A stretch of DNA of 64,000 nucleotides, taken from the NCBI GenBank assembly GCA_017520185.1, contig JAFXGO010000008.1, positions 124,001-188,000 of the forward strand, in the 5' to 3' direction. Within the stretch, counting starts at the first letter, position 1. Each line of letters starts with the position of its first letter. This document shows positions 29,385 through 44,765 of this stretch, one piece after another. The position numbers and the translations under genes were made by a program. The notes below the pieces were generated by a model. It was not told the origin of the DNA. It saw only the letters and a list, made by a program, of their open reading frames with translations, and searched no databases. The DNA is from Elusimicrobiaceae bacterium. Its GTDB lineage: Bacteria; Elusimicrobiota; Elusimicrobia; Elusimicrobiales; Elusimicrobiaceae.

Positions 29385-29579
29385 TTATGGACAGATTTGC
29401 TGAAAACTCAGCAAAGCGCGAAGATTTTGAATATTTAACTGTCCGATTGCTTCATCTTGATAATCAAAACGTACCCGACAAACAGGTGCATTATTTTTGA
29501 TATTTCCCGCACAAGCGCTGCATACACTCATCATAAGAAAGATGAGCATTAGCGCGTAATATTTGTTGAATTTGTTCAT
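29385..29579 (-). CDS. Rz1-like outer-membrane spanin lipoprotein
   Basis: A 64-residue protein read in a different frame from the i-spanin-like gene. It begins inside that gene (29579) and runs past its end. MNKFNKYYALMLIFLMMSVCSAC is a lipoprotein-like signal with a Cys-containing lipobox; the mature part is short. Nested Rz/Rz1 overlaps are a hallmark of phage spanin pairs that fuse inner and outer membranes at lysis. The longer frame from 29648 is not preferred because it lacks a signal at its start. Confidence 0.7.
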   Translation of the reverse strand: MNKFNKYYALMLIFLMMSVCSACAGNIKNNAPVCRVRFDYQDEAIGQLNIQNLRALLSFQQICP

Positions 29580-29691
29580 TTTCTCGCTCTCGTTGTTGAA
29601 GTGATTTTTTATCAGCAAAGGTTTTTCCGGTCCAAAAACCAAAAACACCGGCTACCAAGACCACTAAAACAAAAATGATTTCCGTTATCAT
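29491..29691 (-). CDS. Rz-like inner-membrane spanin
   Basis: A 66-residue protein with one N-terminal membrane helix (IIFVLVVLVAGVFGFWTG) and a charged helical periplasmic tail, as in Rz i-spanins but short. Its ATG overlaps the holin-like stop (ATGA at 29688-29691). The o-spanin-like gene is nested in its 3' half. Confidence 0.7.
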   Translation of the reverse strand: MITEIIFVLVVLVAGVFGFWTGKTFADKKSLQQRERENEQIQQILRANAHLSYDECMQRLCGKYQK

Positions 29692-29867
29692 TTGCTAAAA
29701 GACCCATCCGGATTACACAAAGACAAAGCCGAAAGAACTTTGATTACTTTTTGTAAAACACGATCATCTTTAGACGTAGGGGTTAACTTTACTATCATCG
29801 TACTCAGTGTCACTACCACCCCCAATATGGCCAAAAGATCTTTTGCATTATTCTGTATCCATTCCAT
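29688..29867 (-). CDS. Holin-like small membrane protein
   Basis: A 59-residue protein, MEWIQNNAKDLL..., with one hydrophobic helix (LLAILGVVVTLSTMIVKL) followed by a charged amphipathic segment TPTSKDDRVLQK and the end LSLCNPDGSFSK. This layout is familiar from small phage holin-like proteins encoded beside spanins. TTAGGAG lies 7 bases before the ATG. Translationally coupled to the i-spanin-like gene. Confidence 0.7.
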   Translation of the reverse strand: MEWIQNNAKDLLAILGVVVTLSTMIVKLTPTSKDDRVLQKVIKVLSALSLCNPDGSFSK

Positions 29868-29876
29868 ATTTTTCTC

Positions 29877-30101
29877 CTAATTACTGCGTCTGAATTGCAT
29901 TAAAATAGATTTGATAGTTTTAACATCATCTATCACGATGTCCATTTTGACGTCTTGACGAGCCAATTGGTCTTCGTGTTGTTGTACACGTGCCTCCAAT
30001 TTATCTACACGCGGTGGCAAGCCATACATCGTAAAAAACCAAAACAACACCGCCCCCAATATGCTTAATACATATACCCAGCCTTGTATTTTTTCACTCA
30101 T
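29877..30101 (-). CDS. Small membrane/coiled-coil protein in lysis cassette
   Basis: A 74-residue protein: one membrane helix (residues 8-28), then a heptad-like coiled coil (VDKLEARVQQHEDQLARQDVKMD) and a short basic end. It could be a second holin component or an anti-holin, or an XhlA-like membrane protein. ATGA overlap with the upstream gene at 30098-30101. Function not assigned. Confidence 0.6.
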   Translation of the reverse strand: MSEKIQGWVYVLSILGAVLFWFFTMYGLPPRVDKLEARVQQHEDQLARQDVKMDIVIDDVKTIKSILMQFRRSN

Positions 30102-30394
30102 TTTTCCCCCTCACGCAACTCGGCAGCCAAGTCCTCAATCTCTTGGGCTTTGGCTTTGGTGTAGTCGGAATACAAAGAGCCTTCTGCCAAAATACCTTCG
30201 CGTTGCCAACGGCTCATGCCATAGTCTTGCTCAAGTTTAGCCACCTGTTCTTCTAATGTCGGCTCTTTAGGAGCAGGATTAGCCACGATGACATACTGCG
30301 CTCCTTGTTTTTTAATGTGCGCATTGTTTTGGTTGCACCAAATAGCGGCTTTCGTATAGTTTTCTTTCGTTAAAATTTGTCCGATTTCAAACAT
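30098..30394 (-). CDS. Phage protein of unknown function downstream of tail fibre
   Basis: A 98-residue soluble protein. The N-terminal half (FEIGQILTKENYTKAAIWCNQNNAHI) forms a compact alpha/beta unit resembling small proteins encoded just after tail-fibre genes in other phages. The C-terminal half is charged and helical. Starts 2 bases after the fibre stop and overlaps the next gene by ATGA. Possibly a fibre chaperone; no enzymatic motif is visible, so I do not call it the missing endolysin. Confidence 0.55.
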   Translation of the reverse strand: MFEIGQILTKENYTKAAIWCNQNNAHIKKQGAQYVIVANPAPKEPTLEEQVAKLEQDYGMSRWQREGILAEGSLYSDYTKAKAQEIEDLAAELREGEK

Positions 30395-30396
30395 TT

Positions 30397-31593
30397 TTAT
30401 GCTCCTTGTCCACAGGCATAATATTTTCTTACGTATGCCAATGAAAGAGTTTTAAAGTATGTATTACTTTCTGACTTTGCTGTAATCGCGCCCCACACAC
30501 TTTGTACAGTAGAATTATCCTGCAAAGAAGGGACAGATACATAATAATTAGTGTCAGCAAAAGGTTTTAAAAAAGAAACAGAGACGTAGGTATTTGAGCC
30601 TGTAGGTACAATCCCGCCTTGTTCCAACCAACCGCTTTTCCAAACTCTATACCAATTTCCATCTTCATCAGAATAACTTTCCACTACATAGTTATAAGCA
30701 GGAGGAATGTTGCTGAAGTCGGCATTGGCTTTATGTTGAATAGATTCTGTTAATAAATCTAATTTTGACGCACTTTCTGCCACCGATTCTGCGCTTTGTT
30801 TAGCTTGGTTTGCACTTTGGGCGGCAGATTCTTGGCTGGCTTGTAAATCTTGTGCAAAAGATTCGGCAGAAATAGCCGCATTTTGCGCTGTTTGCGAAGC
30901 AGATAATGCCTGATAAGCGGCTTCTTGAACGCTTATTTGCGCGTTTAAAATATTCTCTTGGGCTTGGCCGACCGCTTGAGAAGATGCCACCGCCTCATCA
31001 CGCGCATCAGCAGCCTGTTGTGCATATTGCTGCAAATTACCTACGGCCTGTTCTGCCGCCGCACTTGCTTGTAGCGCCGTTTGTGCCGCTGAGGTGGCGG
31101 TAGATAAACTCTGTTGGACTGAGACAGTGATGTTTTGCGCATCTTCTTTGGCGCGGGCCAATTCCTGCAAATATTCCATCGCATCGGTAGAAGTACTTTC
31201 TGCGTTTATAGGAAATTTTACTGCACGCGACAACTGTGCCGCTAATTCCTGTGCAATCAGCATGGCTTTATCGTAGCCTGCTTCTAAAATAGAAGGGTCA
31301 AAACTTTGTTGGGCCAAAAATTCTGTCTCTTGGCACAGGGGTGTTTCTCGCTCCAACAATAATCTTTTTTTTGACGGAAGGGGCAGAGCATCGCTATCCG
31401 GCTGCGGATAATAGAAAATTTTATTTTCCTCATCAATTTCAAAATCTCCCGTCAGAAGATTTTTTTCTCCTTTTTCATCGAGCAAATAAATTTTTATATC
31501 TTCTTTATTTAAAAACGGAAAAGGAATATCCCACCGTACGGTTTCTCCGTTTCCTTGATAGATTACATATGTTTGCGTTGTTCTGATTGTCAT
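30397..31593 (-). CDS. T7-type tail fibre protein
   Basis: A 398-residue fibre. Residues 1-120 match the T7-type fibre N-terminal domain that docks to the tail (TTQTYVIYQGNGETVRWDIPF, then a GDFEIDEEN...LLLERETPL layout). Residues 125-290 are Ala/Gln/Ser-rich heptads, a predicted trimeric coiled-coil shaft. The last 80 residues form a beta-rich tip (GIVPTGSNTYVSVSFLKPF... ending YYACGQGA) that should bind the host surface. The start at 31593 overlaps the previous stop by ATGA. No C-type-lectin tip or reverse transcriptase is present, so this is not a diversified fibre. Confidence 0.85.
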   Translation of the reverse strand: MTIRTTQTYVIYQGNGETVRWDIPFPFLNKEDIKIYLLDEKGEKNLLTGDFEIDEENKIFYYPQPDSDALPLPSKKRLLLERETPLCQETEFLAQQSFDPSILEAGYDKAMLIAQELAAQLSRAVKFPINAESTSTDAMEYLQELARAKEDAQNITVSVQQSLSTATSAAQTALQASAAAEQAVGNLQQYAQQAADARDEAVASSQAVGQAQENILNAQISVQEAAYQALSASQTAQNAAISAESFAQDLQASQESAAQSANQAKQSAESVAESASKLDLLTESIQHKANADFSNIPPAYNYVVESYSDEDGNWYRVWKSGWLEQGGIVPTGSNTYVSVSFLKPFADTNYYVSVPSLQDNSTVQSVWGAITAKSESNTYFKTLSLAYVRKYYACGQGA

Positions 31594-33041
31594 TTTTCTA
31601 CCTCTTGCAGGCGCAAAATTTGGCGGGCGCGTTGCGCTGTTGCTAAAGCATCTTCGCAATTTATCCCTGAAGTATAAATACTGTATTTAAGAGCCTGCCT
31701 TTGCGAGTCCTCCTTTGCTTGTTCTTGTACCAACTGTTCCACCGCTTGTTTTAAAAACACTTCGTCGGATACACTTTCACCTGCCTGTTTTTGACAAAAT
31801 TTATGCTGAAGCAAAAAATATTCTTTAGCGGTCAGTTGTTTTTTTTCAAAAGAACGTTCTATTTCTTTTTCTTCTGCCTTTCCCTCCAGCACTTTTTCAT
31901 ACAAACTGTTAAAAACGACCGGATTGCTAAAAGAGCCCTCCTCTGCCATACGCAAAGAGGCTTTTTGCAATTTATCAAAACTTTCCTTCCCTAACTTATC
32001 CACCTCAAAGTCTATTATCATGGATGAATTTCTTTGGGAAAATAATTTTTTATACAGGTTGGCTCTATCGGCAAAATAGGCCCTTTTCCGCTCTGCCACA
32101 TGAGCCGAAAAAACCTGCCAAAAAATATCTTTATCCTCTGTTTCAGGCTTGATATCTTGGATAAAAGACTCCATTCTCTTGGCAGAAAAATCTTGCTCTT
32201 TTTCCATCTGCTGATATATACTTTTCGGCAAAGAAGCCACCTGCAACTCTGCTTTTTTATAAGAGATTTTAGATGATAAAACCGCTGCTTTTTCTTCAGG
32301 AATTTCATTTAAAAAATGATGAAACACTTCCTCCGCTTGCGAAACAAGACCTTCTTGTAAAGATGTGTGGATATTTTTCAAAACGGCCTCTTGTCGCAAG
32401 GTTTGTTGTGTTTCTTTCCATGCGATTTCCGACATACTTTCACTCCCGTTTTCTTGTGAAGCTGCGGATAAATTGTTTTGAATATATTCTTCCAAAGCGG
32501 CCACCCCCCTAACGGCACTGGCCACCTGCAAGAAAATTTGACGTCCTTGTACTAAACGCATTTGATGAGCCTGCGCATATTTCTTTTGTTCTTGCTCTAG
32601 CGCATGACGGCGCATGACCACATAATCTTGAGAAGCCAAGAAATCCGTTTCCATTCCGGAAGAATGAGATTCTGCGTATTGATCTAATTTTTCTACCGAA
32701 GAAGAATCTTTTTCATTTTCTGCAGAAAATAGATTCTTTTGATAGAAATCAAACAATTCTTTTCTCTGATCAGAAGAAAAAACTCTTTGTTTCGCCGGAT
32801 TTTCCGAGATGGCGTTTTTTTCCGTCTTTTCTGTTTTGCTCTGTTTGGAATATTTATTTTTTTCCAGCAGATTTGTTGCCTGCTGATATGTTTGAGCAAC
32901 GGCTTTCCACTGTTGTCCCACTTTATGCAAATCAAACCAATGCTGATGACCGGAAGCCTCTTTTAAAGGTCTGGCCAAAGGCACCGAACGGGCAAAACTG
33001 CCTTGATATACTACTTTATTTTTATAAACCGGTATTTTCAT
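31590..33041 (-). CDS. Phage internal virion/ejection protein
   Basis: A 483-residue, highly helical, Gln/Glu/Lys-rich protein. The opening MKIPVYKNKVVYQGSF followed by a helical domain resembles the first residues of ejection proteins of other podophages, which sit between the gp14-like protein and the fibre as here. Most of the rest (residues 60-480) is predicted coiled coil. No lytic transglycosylase signature is apparent, unlike T7 gp16. Placement and style support the call; sequence motifs alone would not. Confidence 0.6.
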   Translation of the reverse strand: MKIPVYKNKVVYQGSFARSVPLARPLKEASGHQHWFDLHKVGQQWKAVAQTYQQATNLLEKNKYSKQSKTEKTEKNAISENPAKQRVFSSDQRKELFDFYQKNLFSAENEKDSSSVEKLDQYAESHSSGMETDFLASQDYVVMRRHALEQEQKKYAQAHQMRLVQGRQIFLQVASAVRGVAALEEYIQNNLSAASQENGSESMSEIAWKETQQTLRQEAVLKNIHTSLQEGLVSQAEEVFHHFLNEIPEEKAAVLSSKISYKKAELQVASLPKSIYQQMEKEQDFSAKRMESFIQDIKPETEDKDIFWQVFSAHVAERKRAYFADRANLYKKLFSQRNSSMIIDFEVDKLGKESFDKLQKASLRMAEEGSFSNPVVFNSLYEKVLEGKAEEKEIERSFEKKQLTAKEYFLLQHKFCQKQAGESVSDEVFLKQAVEQLVQEQAKEDSQRQALKYSIYTSGINCEDALATAQRARQILRLQEVEK

Positions 33042-33051
33042 ATTTTCCTCA

Positions 33052-33558
33052 TTATTGGCTAAACCAACTGCTCAACACATTGTTTATTTTGCCCCACCAT
33101 TTAGAGTTTGCTCTTTTAGCTGCTTTTCGATATTGCTCCGCTTCTGTACGTGCTTGCATGGCCTCCAACGTGGCTTGTGTATTTGTTTGCCGGATAGATC
33201 GGCTCATATTCTCAGCCAACATTTCTTGATCCAAAAGCGCATTAAGACGGCTATTTTTCAAGATTTTCTGTACTGTAGCCGAACCGGCAGATAAACCGCT
33301 GGCAGCCAAAGAAGTCTTCTGCTGGCCCAATAAATGGGCATAATCCTTGCCAAGTTCCCTATTTTGATATCCTGCATCTTGAAAAATATATTCCGTATTT
33401 TTTTTGGCATTTTCTTGCGCTTGCTTGGCTTGTTCATCAGCCATTTTAGCCAAAGAGCGGTAATAATCTTTTTCCTGATCATGATCTGTCAATAGTGCCG
33501 CCGCCGTAGATAGAACACTCCCCCCCGTAAATAAAACATTTCCTAAAGCTCCTCCCAT
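33052..33558 (-). CDS. T7 gp14-like internal virion protein
   Basis: A 168-residue protein with a Gly/Ala-rich hydrophobic N-terminus (MGGALGNVLFTGGSVLSTAAALL) and a long Ala/Gln-rich helix with repeated AxxxA spacing, typical of gp14-family virion core proteins that insert in the outer membrane during DNA ejection. The start at 33558 has AAGGAGG at the right distance; the longer frame overlaps the upstream gene with no ribosome site. Confidence 0.7.
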   Translation of the reverse strand: MGGALGNVLFTGGSVLSTAAALLTDHDQEKDYYRSLAKMADEQAKQAQENAKKNTEYIFQDAGYQNRELGKDYAHLLGQQKTSLAASGLSAGSATVQKILKNSRLNALLDQEMLAENMSRSIRQTNTQATLEAMQARTEAEQYRKAAKRANSKWWGKINNVLSSWFSQ

Positions 33559-33583
33559 AATGCCTCCTTGCTGATTTGTAGAC

Positions 33584-34102
33584 CTAACAAGGTCTTTGAA
33601 ATTGATACAACTCAAAAACGGTTTCTTTTCCGGCTAAATGTATTTTTCCTTCTTGTTTACATGCACCTAAACGCAACAAATACCGTTGCGCCTGCCGATA
33701 GCGAACATCGCACAAGGCATATAATTGCGGATAAATACTTAAAAAGTAGCGTAAAACCTCTTTGGACACTTGCCAAAATTTCTTGGGGCTTTGCTCCACT
33801 CCTTTTCCCGTCCAAGACCACACACATCCTCTCGCGCCCAACAAACTGTCTGCCTCTACTCCAGCTGCGCCGCAAATCTTCCCACGATAAAACAAAGCCA
33901 AAGCAATGCTGGACTTTTGATAACATTTCTCCAACACATCTTCTACCGGCAGACGATAGGCCGCCCAGATTTCTGAGCGATCTTGTCTGCGTAAAGATAA
34001 AGCCAACTGCGCTAAATCTTCTTTACAAAGCAACCGCAAACTAATATCATGATAAGAGAGTAGTTTTTTATCTAAGGAGGATATAATGCTTGCATTCATC
34101 AT
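33584..34102 (-). CDS. T7 gp13-like internal virion protein (acetyltransferase-like fold)
   Basis: A 172-residue protein matching the gp13/DUF2833 family: a start ISLRLLCKEDLAQLALSLRRQDRSEI, then LALFYRGKICGAAGV and a C-terminal GNAT-like half. In T7 the homologue is needed for virion assembly. The start is uncertain: ATG at 34102 has AGGA in front but overlaps, head to head, the first 17 bases of the plus-strand gene at 34086. The frame stays open to 34228. The promoter of that plus-strand gene lies inside this gene. Confidence 0.7.
   Translation of the reverse strand: MMNASIISSLDKKLLSYHDISLRLLCKEDLAQLALSLRRQDRSEIWAAYRLPVEDVLEKCYQKSSIALALFYRGKICGAAGVEADSLLGARGCVWSWTGKGVEQSPKKFWQVSKEVLRYFLSIYPQLYALCDVRYRQAQRYLLRLGACKQEGKIHLAGKETVFELYQFQRPC
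34022..34050 (+). promoter_or_regulatory. Promoter of the inserted plus-strand membrane gene
   Basis: TTTACA (34022-34027), 17-base spacer, TATCAT (34045-34050). It lies inside the gp13-like coding region on the opposite strand, 36 bases before the ATG, with TAAGGAGG between. Confidence 0.65.
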
Positions 34103-34814
34103 TCTTGCTATCCTGTTGTTAGGAGCAGTTTCTTTCGGCCTTTTGTTCCTTATTTTTAAGCTCATTTGGATTTTATGCAAAAACAAACGAAACTTTTGGC
34201 CGCTGATTCTTTCCGCCGTATTATCCACTATCCTGATGTTAACGGCGGCATTCTTTAGCTATTCTGTATATCAAAAATACGTAAAACCTTTTGACCCTAT
34301 CATACAAACTGCCAAAACGCAAAAGAGTTTGCAAATAGGAAGTCGCCTTTATACTAATCCCGTAGGTTTTGCCCTTACTTTACATGATGGGACTACCATG
34401 AGTAATTGGATTAAAGTAGAGGATTGGAACTTTTTGGTAGGCTTGGATACTAATATTTTCGTAAACAAAGAAAAGAAAAATCAGCCCTTCTCATTTTACC
34501 TTTTGGGCCACGAAACAGACGATGACCCTCAAAATGTGCATAAAATCATGGAAGATATAACACAAGCTCTTTCTTCTTACGATTCATCCGAAGGTAAAAT
34601 TGAAATAAAACAGGCACAACCTATTGATGTAGGATCCAATACTATAGGAGAAATACTCACCGCAGATATTTACCCATTGGATCAAACCCCTCCGCTGACA
34701 TTTTCTTTAGTAATGGCCACCAAAGGTTATAACACTTATTTCTTAGTAGGGGTTGGCAACTTAGGAAATGAAAAGGTTTTAGATACTGTCAGCAGTTTTG
34801 TTATCACCAAATAA
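34086..34814 (+). CDS. Moron-like membrane protein of unknown function
   Basis: A 242-residue protein on the strand opposite to all virion genes. It has two N-terminal membrane helices (residues 2-28 and 39-62) separated by a short basic loop CKNKRN, then a soluble, probably periplasmic alpha/beta domain of about 175 residues. No family is recognised. It has its own promoter, a strong TAAGGAGG site and a terminator, the usual design of prophage morons expressed in the lysogen. Its N-terminal hairpin resembles the small protein at 42504. Confidence 0.75.
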   Translation: MLAFIILAILLLGAVSFGLLFLIFKLIWILCKNKRNFWPLILSAVLSTILMLTAAFFSYSVYQKYVKPFDPIIQTAKTQKSLQIGSRLYTNPVGFALTLHDGTTMSNWIKVEDWNFLVGLDTNIFVNKEKKNQPFSFYLLGHETDDDPQNVHKIMEDITQALSSYDSSEGKIEIKQAQPIDVGSNTIGEILTADIYPLDQTPPLTFSLVMATKGYNTYFLVGVGNLGNEKVLDTVSSFVITK

Positions 34815-34823
34815 AAACTTCTC

Positions 34824-34849
34824 AAACGCCCGATAAACATCGGGCGTTT
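34824..34849 (+). terminator. Terminator of the 34086 membrane gene
   Basis: A perfect 11-bp stem (34824-34834 with 34839-34849), 4-base loop AAAC, then seven T. On the minus strand it lies just after the tail-tube B stop and could also weaken read-through into the internal virion genes. Confidence 0.85.
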
Positions 34850-34851
34850 TT

Positions 34852-37455
34852 TTAACATATTTGCGCCACCACCGCCAAAACAGTGACGGGAAATGGGTCT
34901 TTTTGGACAAACGTCACTGCCGGAAAGACCGAATGAGCAGAAGATAACACTTTGCAAAACTCGCGCGTCTGCAATGGGGCTGCTTGTCCATATACCTCTG
35001 AAGGCAACGGATACAATGGGTCCAATTTTCCCCCTGATGCTCCTGCTTCCCCACCGCGGCTATCCAACATTTTAAGCGTTATTTTAACTAGACGGCGTCT
35101 TCTGTCTTGCATACTGCCTTCTGATGTTTCAAAAGAAACAGGCAGTGTCTCTAACTGCGCCTGATAAGAAAGCCCCACATGTGCCGTACAAACAGGCTGC
35201 TGAAAGGATATTTTTCCGTCTTTTACTTGCACATCCATCAGTGGATTTCCGTCTGCCAAAACCACCACTTTTTGCCCTTCTAAATGCTCTAATCCGCTCA
35301 TTTGGCTAAAAGGCTGATTGCTTTTTTGCGATACACTGCAATCTAAAAAAATCTGATCTTCCACTGCTTTGCTGGGCATACGGGCCAACATGCGTTCTAT
35401 GAAACAAACTCCATTTCTTTGTGTTAAAAACCAAGTTTCGTCATATCCGCGCGAAGGGATACAGCACACACTAAGAAATTTCCCTTGTGTTTGGTGTTTG
35501 CTCCAGGCCCACATTTCCTCCTCTGCCAAATAGGTTAACGAGAGCAAACTTCCGTCATTTAGTACACACCAAATTAAGTTATCGGGCTCTTGCTGATAAG
35601 AGAGGGCCTTTATCTCCTTGTTAAAAAACAGATGTTTGGCACGTAAGGTTAAATCTCTACCTGTATAACAGTCGCTGCTATAATCGTAGAAAAAATCTCG
35701 TAATACGCCCCCGCGCGATTGTACATACAAAGTGCGATTGCCCACCACCAACGGTGCCACTTTGCTGGCACCGCGTTCTCCCTCTTGAGCAATTTCAATA
35801 TTATACGGAGTTAAGGCCCCATTACAACCCAAACTCCACTCACTTCCTGCCGTAAAAATGAGTAATTTGCTTCCAACAGCCACAGAATGAATGGCATTGA
35901 GTTTTTTGCTGGAAAGATGCAAACTAATAGCATCTGAATCTTCTAAAGTGCGCAAATACCCAAAATTTTCATACTCCCCCGTTTTAGAAAACCAAATTGT
36001 TTGCGGTTCTTTTTTACTACCGGCAAAGCCTAAACGGTCCTGATAAAAAAATACACAACTAGGAAACCCTGCCTCCGAATGGAAAGATCCCTCTGCCCAA
36101 TCTGAGGTCCACTGTTGCATATCTCCCGGTTGACGCTGCACCGATACCAACATTTCTCGAGGGCTGACATAACTTTCCAACTTTACAATTCCTTCTTGCA
36201 TAAAGGCATCCGATTGCAAAATATAACCCATTTCGCCGGAAATGCCCAAACAACGCAAACGCAAATAACGCATCTTGGCCGACAGTTCCAAATTTCCCAA
36301 AGTACTTATATTATCTTCATCTTGGGCTTTGGTAAAGTGCTTCACTTTGTTCCACGTTTGCCCATCTTCAGAAGATTCCAACACTACTTCTCCAAACCAA
36401 TTTCCGGTGGTCCGTAAGCGCCAATCCCCCCCTGTTTTAATAATCGCAGATACGCCGTTGTAGCCTAATGTTCCCGTCTCGTAAAAACTCTCTATACGGT
36501 GATTTAAGGCAAAAAGTCCCCCTACCTGTCCCGGTCTGAAAAAATCAAAATCTGTCTGAAGATAAAGTTTTTCTTCTCCGCTGCTTATCACTTCTCCGGC
36601 ATTCGAGCCACCGCTCATGGTTTGCGTCACGATCAATTTGGGTGCAGACAAAAGTGCTTCTCTATATTCAATGACCAGCTGGGCTCCATTATGACTTCCC
36701 CCCGTCTGCTGAGGTGATTCAATGCGCAATACCCCGCCCTGATTAAATGCTATACAACCACTACTGCTACATCTGAGATTGAAGGCTTGCACCACTTCAT
36801 TAATGTTAAAACCAAATCCGCTGGGGTCATAAAAACGTTCTCCCCGCCAATAAGCCTGAATAAAACAATTTGGATAAATAATAGGCAAAAAAGACAAAGA
36901 GGCCTTTACCCCTTCCGAAACTACCGTTTCGCTTTTGCTCCACAAACGTGCTTTTTTACTTTCGTCTGTATTAGCCAACATAAAAGGGCCGTCTTTTATC
37001 TGCAAATCTTGTAAAGTAAAAAAACCATCCTCCGTTCGTATCAATTTTTTAGGAAAATATTCGCTATGGACCAAAAAAAGAGTTTGGTCATACTGTACAT
37101 AATGAATCAAGTCCAAGTCCTTTGCTAAATACGGAGAAGGTATTTCATAAATCAGCCCCTCTTTTAGCAAAGTGCCGGCCGGAGCATGGACACGAATGTA
37201 TTGCTCTCCCAACTCCAAGACATAGGCTTCTTCTTCAGAGAGCACAAAAGGAATCAAACGGCAGTTTTTATCAGAATATTTAGCCTGATTGATGTAGGCC
37301 GTACCGCAACGGTTAGAGGCACCCCCCTGTGGGTGAACAAAGAAATTGCAGGCTGTTTTCAGCCAAGAAGTATAAGAAGGCACATCTACTCGAGGATAAA
37401 GATGAGGGCTTACTTCCCCACCCGAAAAGTTGGATTGTACTGCATGAAAAACCAT
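34852..37455 (-). CDS. Tail tubular protein B-like (tail nozzle)
   Basis: An 867-residue, beta-rich structural protein. The N-terminus (FSGGEVSPHLYPRVDVPSY...NFFVHPQGGASNRCGT) is the recognisable head of a podovirus tail-nozzle family. The position directly after tail tubular protein A, and the size, match T7 gp12. The start at 37455 lies one base after the stop of that gene (TAATATG). It would form the distal short-tail tube to which fibres attach. Confidence 0.8.
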   Translation of the reverse strand: MVFHAVQSNFSGGEVSPHLYPRVDVPSYTSWLKTACNFFVHPQGGASNRCGTAYINQAKYSDKNCRLIPFVLSEEEAYVLELGEQYIRVHAPAGTLLKEGLIYEIPSPYLAKDLDLIHYVQYDQTLFLVHSEYFPKKLIRTEDGFFTLQDLQIKDGPFMLANTDESKKARLWSKSETVVSEGVKASLSFLPIIYPNCFIQAYWRGERFYDPSGFGFNINEVVQAFNLRCSSSGCIAFNQGGVLRIESPQQTGGSHNGAQLVIEYREALLSAPKLIVTQTMSGGSNAGEVISSGEEKLYLQTDFDFFRPGQVGGLFALNHRIESFYETGTLGYNGVSAIIKTGGDWRLRTTGNWFGEVVLESSEDGQTWNKVKHFTKAQDEDNISTLGNLELSAKMRYLRLRCLGISGEMGYILQSDAFMQEGIVKLESYVSPREMLVSVQRQPGDMQQWTSDWAEGSFHSEAGFPSCVFFYQDRLGFAGSKKEPQTIWFSKTGEYENFGYLRTLEDSDAISLHLSSKKLNAIHSVAVGSKLLIFTAGSEWSLGCNGALTPYNIEIAQEGERGASKVAPLVVGNRTLYVQSRGGVLRDFFYDYSSDCYTGRDLTLRAKHLFFNKEIKALSYQQEPDNLIWCVLNDGSLLSLTYLAEEEMWAWSKHQTQGKFLSVCCIPSRGYDETWFLTQRNGVCFIERMLARMPSKAVEDQIFLDCSVSQKSNQPFSQMSGLEHLEGQKVVVLADGNPLMDVQVKDGKISFQQPVCTAHVGLSYQAQLETLPVSFETSEGSMQDRRRRLVKITLKMLDSRGGEAGASGGKLDPLYPLPSEVYGQAAPLQTREFCKVLSSAHSVFPAVTFVQKDPFPVTVLAVVAQIC

Positions 37456-37456
37456 A

Positions 37457-38044
37457 TTATCTTGCCTCCCAAAAACTACTTTTACCCTGATGGATATCAA
37501 AACTTTCCGTCATATTGCAGCGGCGAGCTTCATCTAAAGCCAACGTATATTTCTGTAAAATACGCTGCGCCAAAGCCCCATCACCGGTCAAAGCCACTGC
37601 CAAATCTGCCGCTAAAGCCAAAGAAAAGGTCTTTACAAAGGCCGGGTCAAACATTCCCTCATCTTTTACATCTTGTGTATACTCGGCTTGAGCCTGAGAT
37701 ATACCGGAAAAAATAACTCTGGCATGAATATCATGCTGATAAATCTCTTTAAAGGCAGTAGATTGAGCATATCCCCCCTGTCCAAAAACGCGGCGAATAA
37801 ATAAACAATCTTGCGGATAAGCATACATATAAGGCCATTCGGATGGGGTTTTTTGCGGTAATAAAGACAAATTTTCAATACAGCCGGCAAAAGCCCAATT
37901 ATGCGTCCGCAGAACCTCTCTTTTTACAGGTTCATAAAATAAATTACATCTGCGAGACTTCTCATCATCTTGTTTCAAAGAAGAAATAGGTTCTTGCCCC
38001 AAATGAGCCAAAGCCATATTACATATATCCGTTTTTGATATCAT
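37457..38044 (-). CDS. Tail tubular protein A-like (portal adaptor)
   Basis: A 195-residue protein beginning MISKTDICNMALAHLGQEPI and followed by RCNLFYEPVKREVLRTHNWAFA, the standard signature of T7 gp11-type adaptors between the portal and the nozzle. A CGGAG site precedes the ATG. It is the first gene after a 400-base AT-rich gap, so it may begin a tail-gene transcript. Confidence 0.85.
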   Translation of the reverse strand: MISKTDICNMALAHLGQEPISSLKQDDEKSRRCNLFYEPVKREVLRTHNWAFAGCIENLSLLPQKTPSEWPYMYAYPQDCLFIRRVFGQGGYAQSTAFKEIYQHDIHARVIFSGISQAQAEYTQDVKDEGMFDPAFVKTFSLALAADLAVALTGDGALAQRILQKYTLALDEARRCNMTESFDIHQGKSSFWEAR

Positions 38045-38062
38045 TTTAAACTCCGATTTTAA

Positions 38063-38090
38063 TTTATATTAAATTTTAAAGGTTTTTCAA
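38063..38090 (-). promoter_or_regulatory. Candidate promoter for phage tail genes
   Basis: Minus strand: TTGAAA (38090-38085), 16-base spacer, TATAAA (38068-38063). Transcription would begin about a dozen bases before the ATG of tail tubular protein A. The very A/T-rich setting makes chance matches likely. Confidence 0.4.
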
Positions 38091-38402
38091 TAAAACTATA
38101 ATATTAAAAATAAATACAATTTTTAAAAATACTTATTTTTTAAGTATTTTTATTTTTATATATATTTTTACACAACTAAAACCTTCTTTAACAAATTTAA
38201 AAAGATTTAGATTCAATTCATTATTGTTTGGATACAAACAGCACATAAAATATCATTTTTCTTTAAAATTTCATCTTTTAAACCTTTTTTTCTCCAAAAA
38301 ACCCTTTATTTTCTGTTTTTTTTGTTCTTGATATATACTTTTACCCTCTTATGCCTTAAAAACCTACCAGACACACTCTTTTTTTCTATAAAATAGCGAT
38401 AT

Positions 38403-38435
38403 AGGGCGCAGGAGACACCCAAAAACCTGCGCCCT
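38403..38435 (-). terminator. GC-rich hairpin after the capsid genes
   Basis: A perfect 10-bp stem AGGGCGCAGG/CCTGCGCCCT with a 13-base loop, beginning 10 bases after the cement-gene stop. No continuous U-run follows (ATATCGCTATTTTATAG), so it may be a weak terminator or an mRNA 3'-end stabiliser. Confidence 0.5.
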
Positions 38436-38445
38436 CTGGCTGCGA

Positions 38446-38823
38446 TTACATATCCGAACAGTCTGTCAGAAACAGAGAGAGTTTCCCTGCCGTAGCAGAT
38501 CCTGTCACATCATAATAACCGCGAATATATCTTTTGGCTCCCAAAGGCAAAACCATTTTCAGTAAGGTTTTTCCTGCTTTTAAATCCTCCGTTTTTAAAG
38601 AAACGGCGGCCAATTCTTCCATTCCGGCAAAATCTGCCTGATTGGAAGTTTGCAAAGAGATTTTTAAACCGGATAATCCGGCAAAATCTTCTGCCACTTG
38701 CGCCACCACCATTACATGTCCGGCCATATCCCCTGCGGCCGTTTGGTCAATGACATGCTCTGATGCGCCGGAAGCGACAACAGCCTGTTTATCTGAAAGA
38801 AGCAAACTGGTATCAATTAACAT
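38446..38823 (-). CDS. Bbp16-like capsid cement protein
   Basis: A 125-residue beta-rich protein. It starts with a short MLIDTSLLLSDKQAV strand and has the run LKISLQTSNQADFAG...LPLGAKRYIRGYYDVTG...TAGKLSLFLTD. This pattern is that of the cement protein family named after Bordetella phage BPP-1 Bbp16. Such proteins decorate and stabilise the capsid lattice. It follows the major capsid gene by 17 bases, the same neighbour order as in BPP-1-type phages. Confidence 0.75.
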   Translation of the reverse strand: MLIDTSLLLSDKQAVVASGASEHVIDQTAAGDMAGHVMVVAQVAEDFAGLSGLKISLQTSNQADFAGMEELAAVSLKTEDLKAGKTLLKMVLPLGAKRYIRGYYDVTGSATAGKLSLFLTDCSDM

Positions 38824-38840
38824 ATTTTCTCCTTAATTTC

Positions 38841-39818
38841 TTAAATAACCACATTTTCCGTATCGGTAATAGCATCACAGATATGGACCGGAATTTCATT
38901 AAACGTCATTAATGGACGGCTGGTAATTTGATCCGGCGTATACTGTACGTTATGTTTATTGCTGGTTAACTTGCGCAAAGCCGCTTTTACGGTGCGGTTC
39001 ATATACCAGAAAGGTTTTCCCAAGTTAAGGCTTTGGATACGTTCTTCCAAATCACACATTTTATCAATCAAATCTTCCGACACATTGGTCACATCAATAT
39101 TGCAGATGCGCCCGGCATAACGCCAATCTTGCACCGCCAGACCTAATTTCCATTCAAAATACTCTTTGTAAGCAGGATATTCGTTGCCTTCGGCATCGGT
39201 ATGATTGATTAAACCATGATCCACCCGCTCAATACCGGCTTTAGAGCCATGCGGGAAAAAGGTAAAGATTTTATCATTATCCCACACAACCAAGTAAATA
39301 GAGGAGTTTTGCCCGTCGGTTTTTCCACCGGCATCAATAACGTTGCGTGCGCTTTCGGCTTCAGTCAGCGTATTATAACGAGCCGCCAAACCGGTAAAGC
39401 GTTCCGGTGTGTGACCGGCATTTCCATAAATCAAATTACTGGCCATTGTATTGGACATACCGGCAATAATGGCTTTGCTTTGCCCTGTACGTACCGCCTG
39501 CAAATTACCGCCTTTTTCCGCCACCAATTTATCCACCACAGAATAAGAAGATAACGTGCCATACCCTTCCACCACCACTTTTGTAGTAGCTTTGGCAGGC
39601 TCAATTCCTTGATAGGCTCTGCGCCAAGTACCTTCCGGAATGCCGGTACGAACGGCATACTCATGACCGGAGTCTAAATTACTTTCCACCACCAACGCAT
39701 CTGCGATGATGTCATTGGATTTACTTAATACCTCAGCAATAGCCAACTCTTGGCCGGATTGGTCAAATTGTTTGGCATAATCTAAGAGGTTGTAATATTT
39801 ATCTGCAATAATCGCCAT
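38841..39818 (-). CDS. Phage major capsid protein
   Basis: A 325-residue protein of the HK97-fold podovirus capsid group related to BPP-1 Bbp17. Conserved spots are the N-terminal SNDIIADALVVESN helix, GHEYAVRTGIPEGTWR and YSVVDKLVAEKGGN, then an AxDxR-like domain ending with TDTENVVI. It lies between scaffold and cement genes as expected. No stop or frameshift disturbs it. Confidence 0.85.
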   Translation of the reverse strand: MAIIADKYYNLLDYAKQFDQSGQELAIAEVLSKSNDIIADALVVESNLDSGHEYAVRTGIPEGTWRRAYQGIEPAKATTKVVVEGYGTLSSYSVVDKLVAEKGGNLQAVRTGQSKAIIAGMSNTMASNLIYGNAGHTPERFTGLAARYNTLTEAESARNVIDAGGKTDGQNSSIYLVVWDNDKIFTFFPHGSKAGIERVDHGLINHTDAEGNEYPAYKEYFEWKLGLAVQDWRYAGRICNIDVTNVSEDLIDKMCDLEERIQSLNLGKPFWYMNRTVKAALRKLTSNKHNVQYTPDQITSRPLMTFNEIPVHICDAITDTENVVI

Positions 39819-39866
39819 AAATTAAATTTCCTTATAAAGTCGGTCCTTTCGGACAAAGAAAACCGT

Positions 39867-40442
39867 CTAGGCGGATTTCCCGTATAAAGCCTCAGCAAAG
39901 GTTTTGTCCATCGTGGTGCGCGCCGAACCGCCGATAGAACAATCTTCGCTGATTTGTTTGCTGATTTCATAAAAAGTCTTAACGATTGTCGGATGACTGC
40001 CCAAACCGGTGGCATCTAATAAGTTTCTCAGTTCTTCTCCGCCAAAACGTTGCACCACAGATAAAGCTGCAGTCAAATGCTTTTGATAGCAGGGTCCCAG
40101 CATTTGTTGGGTCTGTGCCGTCCATTTATCTAGGATTTGTCGACGCGCTTCGTCGGATATTTTCCGTCCGTCCGCCAATATTTGCATCTCCCAATCCAAT
40201 AATTTCTGCACCGTTTCAGCCGGTAGATGTAATTGACCGGCCAATTGCTTAAAAGATTGCCAGTTTTCCTCACAACCTTTTAATTGGGTGGGAAGTTCCA
40301 ATTTTTCATACTCGTCTAACTTTTCTACAGCAGGCAGCTGATCTGCGGCGGAACTTTTTTCCGCTTCGCTCAGCCGGCCGGTTGTTTCGTCGGCCTTCAA
40401 ATCATCTATGGGGGTTGTTTCTAAGGATTGTGTTTCAGACAT
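39867..40442 (-). CDS. Capsid scaffold-like protein
   Basis: A 191-residue acidic, mainly helical protein with a Glu/Asp-rich disordered N-terminus and a C-terminal module (FGGEELRNLLDATGLGSHPTIVKTFYEIS) common to podovirus scaffold proteins. Upstream of the major capsid gene, overlapping the Bbp19-like gene by 8 bases at 40435-40442. The start at 40442 (MSETQ) is favoured over an upstream Met because it fits the overlap and the family. Confidence 0.7.
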   Translation of the reverse strand: MSETQSLETTPIDDLKADETTGRLSEAEKSSAADQLPAVEKLDEYEKLELPTQLKGCEENWQSFKQLAGQLHLPAETVQKLLDWEMQILADGRKISDEARRQILDKWTAQTQQMLGPCYQKHLTAALSVVQRFGGEELRNLLDATGLGSHPTIVKTFYEISKQISEDCSIGGSARTTMDKTFAEALYGKSA

Positions 40443-40740
40443 AAGGCTGCTCCTCTTTTTCTTTATCAATTTTATTTTGCTGGGCCTTCAATTCAGACAA
40501 ATACTCCGCCCGCATTTGTGCCAACAGCAAGGGAGAAACTTCTAAAATTTGGTTTTGCAAAAACAGTCCAATGCTTTTTTGACCGCAGTGAAAAGCCGTT
40601 GCATACGGATCTGCCGGCACAAAGCCGTGATGATCCGGTTGTGCCACCTGTAATAAACGCCATAATAGCCGCCTTCCTTGTGGCAATTTCAATACGGCAG
40701 ATAAATCTGCCAGATTTCTTTTTTCTATCGATTTACTCAT
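40435..40740 (-). CDS. Bbp19-like small phage protein
   Basis: A 101-residue helical protein with DLSAVLKLPQGRRLLWRLL and an ATAFHCGQKSIGLFLQNQIL block. This pattern is shared by small proteins encoded between portal and scaffold genes in BPP-1-like phages (Bbp19). Function is not known. The 114 bases upstream (40741-40854) hold two RNA hairpins. Confidence 0.7.
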   Translation of the reverse strand: MSKSIEKRNLADLSAVLKLPQGRRLLWRLLQVAQPDHHGFVPADPYATAFHCGQKSIGLFLQNQILEVSPLLLAQMRAEYLSELKAQQNKIDKEKEEQPYV

Positions 40741-40761
40741 GCTTCACTCTCTGCTTTTAAC

Positions 40762-40845
40762 GGGGAAGGAAACAACAGCGTATTTCCTTCCCCACTGCGT
40801 AGGGGGGCTCGTTAATTTTAGGCCTCCCCGCGCCGCAGCATTATT
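40762..40845 (-). promoter_or_regulatory. Pair of intercistronic RNA hairpins before capsid genes
   Basis: Hairpin 1 is a perfect 11-bp stem (40762-40772 with 40783-40793) and 10-base loop. Hairpin 2 (about 40794-40845) is imperfect and GC-rich, pairing CTGCG/CGCAG and a G-run with CCTCCCC. No U-run follows on the transcribed (minus) strand, so they look like processing or stability elements between the portal and capsid cistrons rather than terminators. Confidence 0.6.
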
Positions 40846-40854
40846 TTTAGATTT

Positions 40855-42420
40855 TTACTTTTGTTGCATTTGCTCAATCTGAGCCATCGCCACCGTTTGG
40901 CGTTGTGTGCGAATGCGTTGCGTTTCTTCTTCGCTGCGAAGAAGCACCGGCGGCACTCCCAACAAATCCAATCCTTCCTCTACGGCTCTGTCAAAATCAA
41001 TCTTATCTAGTACTTCCGGATGCCCTTGCGCCAACTGTGCAACAAAATTAATCCCCTGTTCGATAGCACTGACTCCGCTTGCTTTTTGCGCCTGTGCTAT
41101 CATGGATACGTACTGAATTTTAATATCTTCTCCCTCTACAATTTGCGGAGGCAAAGGAATTACCCCCCGACGGTACATAATATTAAAGGTGCGCTCAATT
41201 AACGGGTCCAACAGTTCATTTTTCAATCTTTCCAATACCGGCCCCAATACCAACATTTTTTCCTGATGTCTTTCGGCCACTTCTCTAGCAGTCATTTTTG
41301 AAAAATTTTGTGCACTTAACATCAGGAACACATCGGCAAAAAATTGCCCTTTAATCGTCTGTTTTACACGTTCAATACTACTGTCTAGGGCGGCCAAATC
41401 TATAGGCACCTGATAGGCCGGTTTAACGGCGGCATCTGTAGTGCCGTTATAGCGGGTCAAGCCACCTGGTAAAAGGTTTACCTCTCCCTGCACATTGGCA
41501 GATACCATCATCGGAGGATTAATATTTTTATCCAAAGCCACCAATTTGGCTTTTTGCATTTTTTGGAGCATTTTTACATCGCCCAAACTTTTCCAACCTG
41601 GTCCGCGTCCGTAGATATCGGAACTGTTTTTTACTTCCCAACGGGCCGCAATAACGGGAAACTCTTGATATCCTGCTCGTCTGAGCAGATGTCCTTGCGG
41701 TGTAAAATAAGCAGATGCGTATGGCATATGAAGAAAATCTATTTTGCTTGGATCGGCCTGAGGGTTGGGTACAATTACATGAATTACAGGAAAAAATTCT
41801 GCACTTTTTTCTTGGGCACGCAAGGCGATAGAAGCAGGTAAGTTATTTGAGCCAAACTGTTCTAGCATTTGTCCTGCTGTCATAAAAAATTCTCGCCCAA
41901 AAGCATTAATTTTCCCATGACTATCGGCTCCCAACACATATTCTCCGGCCGTAAAACTGCGACAACTGATAATATGGTCAGCATCCTCCTCCAATAGAAA
42001 AGCAGCCGTACCGAAAATAGAAATCTCCTGATAAAAACTGTGCAAAGTATTGTAAAGATTAGAACGGCTTAACACTTCTTCCATTCTGCGTCTTACTTCA
42101 TACAACCAATGACGCACCCCGTCTTGTTTCATCAAATCGGCATCCGATAAGTTTAATTCAAACCAACTGCGGCTGGGACTGGTAAGGCCAGACATCATAC
42201 CGGCGCAAAGCACCTCTACCGCCAGCATCGGATCGGAATCAATTAAAGCGCGATGATCTATTTTCTGCCCGTCATTTACTGCTTCTCCCTCAAAAAAACC
42301 ACGTGTGGGAGCAATAAACTTAGACAACTCTTTCCACGTGTTTTTCCACGTTTTAGATTGGGCTTTCATGCCGTCATACTGTTTGCGGAAAAATTCCGTT
42401 TCTTGTGTTCTGTAAGTCAT
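40855..42420 (-). CDS. Phage portal (head-tail connector) protein
   Basis: A 521-residue podovirus-type portal. Recognisable parts: FIAPTRGFF near the N-terminus, LAVEVLCAGMMSGLTSPSRSWF, then YGRGPGWKSLGDVKMLQKMQ in the middle and MTAREVAERHQEKMLVLGPVLERL before the C-terminal wing. This matches the Bacteriophage head-to-tail connecting family. As dodecamer it forms the DNA gate and packaging site with TerL. Full length for the family and undisturbed. Confidence 0.9.
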   Translation of the reverse strand: MTYRTQETEFFRKQYDGMKAQSKTWKNTWKELSKFIAPTRGFFEGEAVNDGQKIDHRALIDSDPMLAVEVLCAGMMSGLTSPSRSWFELNLSDADLMKQDGVRHWLYEVRRRMEEVLSRSNLYNTLHSFYQEISIFGTAAFLLEEDADHIISCRSFTAGEYVLGADSHGKINAFGREFFMTAGQMLEQFGSNNLPASIALRAQEKSAEFFPVIHVIVPNPQADPSKIDFLHMPYASAYFTPQGHLLRRAGYQEFPVIAARWEVKNSSDIYGRGPGWKSLGDVKMLQKMQKAKLVALDKNINPPMMVSANVQGEVNLLPGGLTRYNGTTDAAVKPAYQVPIDLAALDSSIERVKQTIKGQFFADVFLMLSAQNFSKMTAREVAERHQEKMLVLGPVLERLKNELLDPLIERTFNIMYRRGVIPLPPQIVEGEDIKIQYVSMIAQAQKASGVSAIEQGINFVAQLAQGHPEVLDKIDFDRAVEEGLDLLGVPPVLLRSEEETQRIRTQRQTVAMAQIEQMQQK

Positions 42421-42503
42421 AAATCACCTTTGTTGGAAGATATGTACTGCGTGCAAAGAAAAGAAAAATTTATTAGGATATAAAAAAACCTAAAGGAGTG
42501 TTT

Positions 42504-42683
42504 ATGTTGGGAGTTATTTTTATTTTGATATTTGTACTACTATTGGCTTTTCCGGGATTTTATCTCATCACACGCCAAGTTTTTCCGAGAGGAAGCAAAC
42601 GCAAGGCGGCTTGGATTTCAGGATTGGTAAGTGCAATTTTTTTAGTAGGTTTACTGCTTATGATGTTTGGAACAATGTTGTAA
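42504..42683 (+). CDS. Small two-helix membrane protein (moron-like)
   Basis: A 59-residue protein with two hydrophobic helices (residues 2-24 and 37-57) around a basic turn FPRGSKRKAAW. It lies on the plus strand between the portal and large terminase genes, both on the minus strand. AAGGAG lies 5 bases before the ATG at 42504; the GTG at 42498 is within that site. A terminator follows. Layout resembles the N-terminal hairpin of the 34086 protein. Function unknown. Confidence 0.6.
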   Translation: MLGVIFILIFVLLLAFPGFYLITRQVFPRGSKRKAAWISGLVSAIFLVGLLLMMFGTML

Positions 42684-42719
42684 GTGTTTTTGGTCTAAAA
42701 AGACCTAGATTTAATAGAT

Positions 42720-42770
42720 AAACTTGATAAAACGATTATAGCATATTTTGTTAGTTTTGTCAAGTTTTTT
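42720..42770 (+). terminator. Terminator of the 42504 gene
   Basis: Arms AAACTTGATAAAAC (42720-42733) and GTTTTGTCAAGTTT (42754-42767) pair over 14 bp with one T-G wobble across a 20-base loop, followed by T. It stops plus-strand transcription before it enters the large terminase gene antisense. Confidence 0.6.
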
Positions 42771-42828
42771 GTTAGCATTTTTTATTTTTTCGTCGATAAA
42801 TTATTAAATTTCTTTTTTAAAGTTAGTT

Positions 42829-44148
42829 TTAAATCACATTATATTCTGTTTTGGCAAAACTTGAACTTTCACCTTTTTTCTTCAAAACAGGCATGGCAAA
42901 AGTGAGCGCCAGGGCATCTGCCAAGTCCGGACTTCGGCCACAACGTGCTTTTAAATCTTCCTTACTTTCCAATTTCATTTTGCCGGAAGAATCAAAACTA
43001 TAACGCACCCCGCACAAATCCGCCCTAAGTTGTGCCGATACCGGCAAGGCCCCTCCGTCGTGCAACCACTGTGCCATTTCCCCCCACATTTCAGCTCGTT
43101 TATTGGCATATTGTCCCACTTTTATCGGAGCAGAACCGAAGTTTATTTCACAAACTTCAAAACCAAGTTGTCTCAAGCGGTCTATCACCCCCCCGCCACA
43201 ACCGCTATCTATAAATACTGCATCCGGACGAAAAGAATCTATCGTAGCTGCTACGCGTGAAGCAAGCGTCATGTGGTCTGTTTTGGAAAATATTTCCGGT
43301 GGGAAACCTTGCATTCCCTGACGTCTAAAAATTACACTTCTGTCCGCTCCAAAACGGGCCGGATCAACCCCGATAATTTTAGGCGCATAACGTAATTGAG
43401 CCGAAGAATAATGTCTCTGTTCTGCAGCCAACACCTCACTTACATTAATCAGCACATCATCGGCATCGGCCGTAAAATCACACAAATATTCTTGGCGAAA
43501 TAAATGCTGCGGCGTATGCGCTTTGATATGAGCCAATTCGTCTGCGTCAATCACTCCTGTTTTATCCGCCGGAAAAACACCGCACCACCATTGTTGCGGC
43601 ATAGAAATCATGGCTTTCTGGGCGTGTTGATACAAATCATAAAATTGATTTTGTCCCTTTGGTGTTCCGGTAAACAGAACCCATCCTTGACGAGAAAGAA
43701 GCATTGGGCGGATAATCTCATCAAATACATCTGGCTTAATTTGGGCATATTCGTCCAGCACTACTCCGTCGGCATATGTACCGCGCAAAGCGTCTGGATT
43801 ATCGGCCCCCAACAGCCAAATTTTAGACCCGTTCGGCAATAAAACACTTAGTTCTGTTTCGCACAGTTTAACCTGCGGCAAAGGCATAGTATAACGCTTC
43901 ATATAATCCCAAGCAATGAGTTTGGTTTGTTTTAAAAAAGGAGAAATATAAAAATAACGTCCAGCGGTGCGTTTATTTTTCAAAGCACTTTTTAGTAAAT
44001 GATTAATGGCGCAAACCGTCTTGCCCATTTGCCGATGCGTCACCAAAACATTAAAGCGGTGAGTTTCCAACTGCTCATGAATCAGCGTCTGAGGATAACG
44101 CGGCTTGTAAGGAATAACAATCTCTTCTACCATTCTTTGACGAGGCAT
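42829..44148 (-). CDS. Phage terminase large subunit
   Basis: A 439-residue packaging motor. ATPase: deviant Walker A HRQMGKT (residues 38-44), Walker B VVLDE (Asp132, catalytic Glu133) and the coupling motif FTGTPKG. Nuclease half: GVDPARFGADRS and FIDSGCGGGVIDRL, and the late acidic site in SPDLADALALT. It starts one base after the small subunit stop. Intact length, so packaging activity is plausible. Confidence 0.93.
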   Translation of the reverse strand: MPRQRMVEEIVIPYKPRYPQTLIHEQLETHRFNVLVTHRQMGKTVCAINHLLKSALKNKRTAGRYFYISPFLKQTKLIAWDYMKRYTMPLPQVKLCETELSVLLPNGSKIWLLGADNPDALRGTYADGVVLDEYAQIKPDVFDEIIRPMLLSRQGWVLFTGTPKGQNQFYDLYQHAQKAMISMPQQWWCGVFPADKTGVIDADELAHIKAHTPQHLFRQEYLCDFTADADDVLINVSEVLAAEQRHYSSAQLRYAPKIIGVDPARFGADRSVIFRRQGMQGFPPEIFSKTDHMTLASRVAATIDSFRPDAVFIDSGCGGGVIDRLRQLGFEVCEINFGSAPIKVGQYANKRAEMWGEMAQWLHDGGALPVSAQLRADLCGVRYSFDSSGKMKLESKEDLKARCGRSPDLADALALTFAMPVLKKKGESSSFAKTEYNVI

Positions 44149-44149
44149 T

Positions 44150-44599
44150 TTATTTCTCCCACCGAATCACTAAAGGTACTTCTTTTTTAGAGGTTTCTTC
44201 TTTTCCGTCTTTCCACCCTAATAAATTCTTAGCCGTAAAAACAGCAAAAGAAGCAGAATAATTCCCACGCAAACTATTTTGAATTAAGATATTTCCCTGC
44301 AAATCGCGTGCTTTTTTGGCAGATTGGGCAAAGTCCGGATATTCTTTTTCCCATTGGGTTAATATTTCTTGCGTGACCCCCAAACTTCGTGCAAATGCCG
44401 CAAAGGTAGGCAGTTCTGCCGCCGTTTCTATTAAAGAAACAGAACCGTCCTTTTTTATTACTTCTGTGACGGTAAAAGCCGATATGTCAAAAAATGCCAA
44501 CAAACGTTGGGCATATTCTTCTTGATAAACAAGTGTATCCTTGTCGGAAGATATGTTTTTTCTTTTGGAATTTGTCATTTTTTTGCTACGAGAAGTCAT
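44150..44599 (-). CDS. Phage terminase small subunit
   Basis: About 149 residues. The basic N-terminus (SRSKKMTNSKRKN) is followed by a helix-turn-helix region (FAAFARSLGVTQEILTQWEKEY) and the GNYSASFAVFTAKNLLGW end found in small terminases of the P22 gp3-like group. It selects DNA for packaging. The start is uncertain: ATGs at 44599 and 44578 both lack a good ribosome site, while the frame runs open to 44686. First gene of the phage-like block. Confidence 0.75.
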   Translation of the reverse strand: MTSRSKKMTNSKRKNISSDKDTLVYQEEYAQRLLAFFDISAFTVTEVIKKDGSVSLIETAAELPTFAAFARSLGVTQEILTQWEKEYPDFAQSAKKARDLQGNILIQNSLRGNYSASFAVFTAKNLLGWKDGKEETSKKEVPLVIRWEK

Positions 44600-44619
44600 A
44601 ACGATCGATGAAAAACAAA

Positions 44620-44634
44620 CCCGCTGAGAACGGG
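44620..44634 (-). promoter_or_regulatory. Attenuator-like hairpin in terS leader
   Basis: Six base pairs (CCCGTT/AGCGGG, one T-G) with a 3-base loop, followed on the minus strand by TTTGTTTTT, 15-20 bases before the terS ATG. Short stem, so modest confidence. Confidence 0.4.
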
Positions 44635-44648
44635 CCAAAAAGAAGATA

Positions 44649-44676
44649 ATAATATTTCGGGGAAAAATGAGGACAA
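44649..44676 (-). promoter_or_regulatory. Candidate promoter of the phage packaging genes
   Basis: Minus strand: TTGTCC (44676-44671), 16-base spacer, TATTAT (44654-44649), placed immediately after a terminator and before terS. Confidence 0.4.
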
Positions 44677-44701
44677 AAAAATACAAACTTTTAGTTTGTA
44701 T
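44674..44701 (-). terminator. Minus-strand terminator upstream of terS
   Basis: A 9-bp perfect stem ATACAAACT/AGTTTGTAT with a 3-base loop, followed on the minus strand by seven T. Confidence 0.7.
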
Positions 44702-44765
44702 GTATTTATTATATCATATTTTTTATTGTTTGTCAAATAAATAAAAAATTAGGTCAATTTTTCGA

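Follow-up and report, generated by a model that had tools for sequence, protein, structure and literature searches.

A podovirus-derived gene block in Candidatus Avelusimicrobium as a putative gene transfer agent locus

Gene transfer agents (GTAs) are former viruses that cells may use to send pieces of DNA to each other; to our knowledge, they have been described in very few lineages, and there is debate over how they arose and what benefit they bring. Here we analyzed a stretch of 64,000 nucleotides (hereafter the window; positions 124001-188000 of contig C8, JAFXGO010000008.1) from the 1.4 Mb genome of an Elusimicrobiaceae bacterium, which carries a block of phage particle genes that we read, with a probability of about 0.84, as a vertically inherited, independently domesticated GTA locus of podoviral origin. 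The particle gene set is open throughout from 29385 to around 44600 (about 15 kb), mainly on the minus strand, and follows the order TerS, TerL, portal, Bbp19-like, scaffold/protease-like, major capsid protein (MCP), Bbp16-like, tail A, tail B/nozzle, three genes of internal virion type, fibre and lysis cassette. Its predicted products make up a complete set for particle formation, packaging and lysis, as in a podovirus of the BPP-1/epsilon15/BcepC6B type. The linked integrase, repressor and replication genes that mark an active temperate podovirus were found neither inside the block nor in its flanks; the other phage integrase of this genome lies on contig C2, within a separate prophage. If correct, this would be the first GTA in Elusimicrobiota that we know of, and a search of the open literature, which leaves out subscription journals and preprints, turned up no report of a GTA in Elusimicrobia or Avelusimicrobium.

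An earlier note on this DNA had described an intact particle gene block without integrase, repressor or replication genes, with terminators at both ends and all genes on one strand, and had proposed a GTA-like element kept by the host. The ordered, open frames and the missing gene classes were borne out, as were the terminators: a bidirectional one with the inverted repeat AAAGCCGCCTTTTTAGGCGGCTTTTTT closes the block at 29359-29385, and a terminator-like hairpin is present at 44772-44800. The single orientation was not, since two plus-strand genes lie inside the block and are kept at the same place genus-wide. The central proposal gained support from synteny, purifying selection, the lack of a linked integrase or replication module and the presence of the block throughout the genus.

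Distribution, inheritance and selection across the genus

The block was followed in genomes of Candidatus Avelusimicrobium (Elusimicrobiaceae), animal-gut bacteria, each genome representing a different species. Of 66 species, 65 have at least one block gene, usually in a single copy in syntenic position, so that the element extends far beyond one strain, a point that the earlier note had left to be checked. TerL is present in 55/61 genomes (62-82% identity), normally as a single copy, and MCP in 62/66 (83-97%). The four genomes without an MCP match are G006 (a 78% complete assembly), G012 and G055, in all of which other block genes are present, and G060, where none was found. In other Elusimicrobiota genera the block is absent, except for distant MCP matches (29-35%) in four genomes of one far family.

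The surroundings of the block are those of a chromosomal locus. About 37 fetched loci have a common gene order, including the two inverted genes at fixed places, and beyond the block, around 20 of the 24 loci that reach that far have a type IV pilin gene; in the window itself a series of type IV pilin-like genes adjoins the block (46423-49804). In the clade of the window species a peptidase gene stands ahead of the block, and the flanks are common to relatives. No integrase or replication module linked to the block was detected at these loci, and at the block ends att-like direct repeats were of the kind expected by chance only. Several clades carry, between terL and the small inverted gene, either a pilin gene or 2 to 11 tandem genes weakly resembling ChaN/Tiki (PF04187). 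With such non-phage genes lying between terL and portal, the cluster no longer acts as one phage genome. The ChaN/Tiki-like arrays consist of diverged secreted paralogues (e.g., L057:3936-14469, L059:2784-17572 and L065:6229-15876).

Inheritance was evaluated by comparing an rpoB tree with a tree of TerL, portal, MCP and tail protein in 28 species, made without prophage loci (the G007 prophage was left out). Nineteen of 25 splits were common to both, against 0.2 on average and at most 3 with shuffled labels, and the real disagreements were nearly all at weak nodes. To estimate selection, the ratio of nonsynonymous to synonymous substitution rates (dN/dS) was calculated according to Nei-Gojobori as medians over pairs with dS of 0.1-1; only close pairs were used because synonymous sites are near saturation in most pairs. 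The medians were 0.053 for MCP, 0.082 for TerL, 0.146 for portal and 0.075 for tail A (the latter from few pairs), compared with 0.050 for rpoB, so that conservation of MCP is on a par with that of RpoB. This purifying selection on terL, portal and capsid genes answers another of the points raised in the earlier note. Frames are full-length in 52/53 cases for TerL and in 49/49 for MCP, and the Walker A (HRQ-M/L-GKT), Walker B (LDE) and three nuclease Asp residues of TerL are invariant wherever the species alignment covers these positions.

Six features have been proposed to define a GTA: particle proteins derived from caudoviricetes, packaging of mostly random host DNA, full endogenization, a head too small for the genome, mostly vertical inheritance and delivery of DNA to other cells (PMC9662315). 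Three of them can be recognized here. At the level of genes, significant matches for TerS, TerL, portal, MCP, tail and fibre point to caudoviricete descent; endogenization is indicated by the chromosomal position, host flanks, absence of a linked integrase and non-phage genes inside the block in several species; and vertical inheritance with co-diversification is supported by the 19 shared splits and by the distribution. The other three (random packaging, small head and delivery) are matters for experiment.

Alternative explanations and known systems

Several observations weigh against a GTA. Signs of decay of the block are seen in G012 (where TerL is frameshifted), G029 and G055 (where the portal-to-dec region is deleted beside intact TerS and TerL genes). 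The endolysin slot of the locus is empty in the window species and in G043. Alphaproteobacterial GTAs have been reported to use a cheaper carbon composition than their viral homologues, but MCP and portal showed no reduction in carbon cost of the RcGTA kind, their carbon per residue (4.86 and 4.97, respectively) being about equal to or above that of viral relatives in a small viral sample. A putative helix-turn-helix-like stretch, judged by eye, is kept in TerS, and the idea of a TerS devoid of its DNA-binding part, as in RcGTA, was not supported. The length of MCP is about that in BPP-1 and epsilon15, and a full T=7 head like theirs could accommodate the entire 15 kb locus. Finally, the link with DNA-uptake genes described below comes from a single species with a 93%-complete assembly.

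The host could also keep a phage particle for a different purpose, for instance to kill relatives through injection or lysis, with DNA packaging being incidental. The rapid, weapon-like divergence of the fibre (16-82% identity) and of internal virion proteins would fit this, as would the retention of lysis genes in most species. Yet a weapon would not need the purifying selection acting on TerS, TerL, portal and capsid nor the invariant motor residues, and the locus was lost along with DNA-uptake genes in G060; we consider this explanation unlikely. It is very improbable that the block belongs to an active, widespread virus or satellite whose divergence follows that of its hosts and which relies on other prophages for replication and integration. 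There are indeed related prophages that are complete, as well as related viral contigs from the rumen, but the block is a fixed single copy without integrase, between host flanks common to relatives and with clade-specific non-phage genes inserted in it, and no match to its capsid above 67% identity was found in IMG/VR. The recently trimmed or decaying prophage that the earlier note held as its main alternative can be given hardly any credence: the integration and replication half is gone, the window species has no endolysin at the locus and block genes are broken or deleted in a few species, but the block is present in almost all species with congruent trees, low dN/dS and, at 60-97% identity, frames that are almost all intact, and genus-wide co-divergence with the host refutes decay as a general account, leaving it as one that may apply only to G012, G029 and G055.

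True prophages of the genus carry integrase and replication genes and occur sporadically. Those of G007 and G049 have a portal (52-53%) and a capsid (62-71%) related to those of the block together with an integrase, and in G007 also a replication initiator; in a capsid tree, a single clade (support 84) unites all 49 block capsids and leaves out the viral ones. The block TerL is closer (44-56% identity) to the TerL proteins that other prophages of the genus carry, so that packaging and head modules may derive from different phage sources. TerS of the block is gp3-like, a type other than that of the genus prophages.

Among described phages, BcepC6B, BPP-1 and epsilon15 have the same order (TerS-TerL-portal-Bbp20/19-MCP-Bbp16-tail-tail-internal-fibre-holin/endolysin/spanin), and the BcepC6B capsid is 39% identical to the block MCP. 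The block lacks the integrase, helix-turn-helix proteins and helicase of BcepC6B along with the other genes of the replication half; unlike these phages, it is vertically inherited and has two inverted genes added. With respect to known GTAs, the likeness in gene content extends to FpGTA of Faecalibacterium, also podovirus-like, genus-wide and from a gut host, with TerS, TerL, portal, scaffold, MCP and lysis genes (PMC12946183). FpGTA belongs to Bacillota, is split between two operons of 10.5 and 5.5 kb and has been found by experiment to form heads of around 40 nm containing 8.4-8.9 kb of DNA (PMC12946183). RcGTA and CcGTA of Alphaproteobacteria are likewise vertically inherited particle clusters of about 14-15 kb, although of siphovirus ancestry. 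BhGTA/VSH-1 of Brachyspira and BaGTA of Bartonella also go back to phages that were domesticated independently and retained for gene transfer (PMC9662315); they have other phage ancestors and hosts, and there transfer has been demonstrated experimentally.

Promoters, leader hairpin and a possible mode of action

Two minus-strand sigma-70 promoters with a 12/12 consensus match precede the block operons. That of the terminase operon (44708-44736) reads TTGACA-17-TATAAT with an extended TG, and that of the portal/head/tail operon lies at 42735-42763. A 12/12 match is retained ahead of terS in 36/51 species and ahead of portal in 35/49, with none in the corresponding shuffled sequences (0/51 and 0/49). 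The whole genome contains nine perfect TTGACA-N16-18-TATAAT sites, two of which are the block promoters. Straight after the terS promoter, a hairpin with a 9 bp stem and a 3 nt loop is followed by a U-tract (44673-44701, minus strand; -7 kcal/mol, z -4.1). Such a hairpin and U-tract were observed in 41/41 species with a terS promoter score of 11-12, by a loose criterion that half of AT-rich shuffles also pass. The stem UACAAA...UUUGUA is conserved while the loop length varies, and compensatory changes occur at two outer pairs; the conserved stem, these changes and the z score in the window weigh more than the 41/41 count.

We infer that this hairpin is a promoter-proximal attenuator, resembling an intrinsic terminator, through which transcription would have to read, suggesting that the terminase operon is off by default and subject to control of the antitermination type. 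Given its variable spacing, the palindrome is less likely to serve as an operator. Antitermination controls CcGTA (PMC11150451), where the terminator comes after the first gene and has GC-rich repeats, in contrast to the AT-rich hairpin at the transcription start of the block. A second, GC-richer terminator-like hairpin lies between the terS promoter and terS (44618-44636).

ComEC and DprA are present in 65/66 and 63/66 genomes of the genus, respectively, a distribution that we regard as only permissive for DNA delivery. G060, the only genome without any of the block genes sought (TerL, MCP and tail B), also lacks ComEC and DprA. It is placed inside the genus by rpoB, and the joint absence is therefore a loss. 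We propose that a podovirus of the epsilon15/BPP-1/BcepC6B type shed the half of its genome with the integration, repressor and replication genes while the genus radiated or earlier, and was then kept by selection. RNA polymerase would start at the consensus promoter ahead of terS and normally halt at the leader hairpin, until some factor or condition permitted read-through in a few cells, while the second promoter would drive head and tail genes. TerS and TerL might then fill heads of conserved capsid and portal with host chromosomal DNA, presumably at random, and short tails with a fast-changing fibre would bind relatives. Holin, endolysin and spanins would lyse the producer, the endolysin of the window species having to come from elsewhere, and DNA would probably enter sister cells via the ComEC/DprA route. 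As for the broader proposal, that a podovirus GTA arose at the base of the genus, with strong promoters behind a promoter-proximal terminator and functionally tied to natural competence, both being lost together, and makes up a full system of DNA exchange in an Elusimicrobiota genome of 1.4 Mb, we see the chances as evenly balanced.

The block would represent an independent, genus-wide case in another phylum, and the free relatives of its podovirus ancestor within the same genus offer a clean view of the state before and after domestication. Natural losses of the block allow testing what a GTA serves for, and the joint loss with ComEC and DprA in G060 and the conserved leader hairpin lead to directly testable predictions.

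Genes of the block and minor observations

Unless otherwise stated, the genes described here are on the minus strand. TerS, the terminase small subunit (44150-44599), is of the GP3_package type (phrog_3064, E 4e-19; PF16677, E 3e-6, just under the cut-off); a start at 44599 is more likely than a longer TTG frame because the latter begins within the promoter leader. It is followed by TerL, the large subunit with ATPase and nuclease (42829-44148; phrog_2, E 6e-53), and by the portal or head-to-tail connector (40855-42420; PF12236, E 2e-157; phrog_332). The head genes comprise a Bbp19-like small protein (40435-40740; PF25181, phrog_528), a scaffold/protease-like protein (39867-40469; phrog_458, E 7e-25), MCP of the epsilon15 gp7/BPP-1 type (38841-39818; PF20911, E 1e-113; PDB 3j40 and 3j4u) and a Bbp16-like protein, presumably for head decoration (38446-38823; PF21190). 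Between the latter and tail A there are 400 bases (38045-38445) with 24% GC and no open reading frame above 60 amino acids, a region that is longer in relatives.

Tail protein A (37457-38044; phrog_394, E 2e-51) matches in position the Bbp14-like tail gene of BcepC6B and is followed by tail protein B/nozzle (34852-37500; phrog_376, E 3e-185; PF25675). Two internal virion proteins (33584-34228, phrog_308, E 5e-19; 33052-33615, phrog_418, E 1e-8) precede a large, fast-evolving protein (31590-33041), presumed to be a third from its positional counterpart in relatives, with 16-54% identity between species and no family match. The tail fibre (30397-31659; phrog_1640, E 4e-13) has a conserved N-terminal and a variable distal part, and the small protein after it (30098-30394), whose place is kept in relatives and which has no family match, is a tentative candidate for fibre assembly.

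The lysis cassette begins with a small protein with transmembrane and coiled-coil segments (29877-30101), which precedes the endolysin slot. The absence of an endolysin claimed in the earlier note holds for the window species and G043; in most sister species the slot is filled by a GH24 lysozyme or by a peptidase, either M15_3 or M15-type (the latter with a weak Pfam score). As a source elsewhere in the same genome, only the C2 prophage has a close M15 relative (73%), other endolysin families not having been sought genome-wide. This prophage (L073, L074), which has an integrase, carries an M15 endolysin 73% identical to that of another species' block, and this suggests endolysin exchange. Next comes a holin-like protein of 59 amino acids (29688-29867), omitted in the earlier note and so called from its size and conserved place, with no Pfam match; then an inner-membrane, Rz-type spanin-like protein with an N-terminal transmembrane segment (29491-29691; weak holin match to phrog_1350, E 0.005) and an outer-membrane, Rz1-type spanin-like lipoprotein (29385-29586), the frame of which overlaps the former, with a probable start at an internal ATG and homologues at the corresponding place in 15 species.

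The two plus-strand genes encode a 61-amino-acid membrane protein in the portal operon leader (42498-42683), at the same place in 49 species and with no family match, and a 242-amino-acid membrane protein between tail and internal virion genes (34086-34814), conserved in 27 species and with a dN/dS of 0.16 from a single close pair. Being inverted within minus-strand operons, both may have an antisense or regulatory role. No known RNA families were found within the block. Elsewhere, two perfect sigma-70 promoters with CCCCC/GGGGG palindrome spacers are located ahead of CsoR/FrmR-like regulators (L298 and L302).

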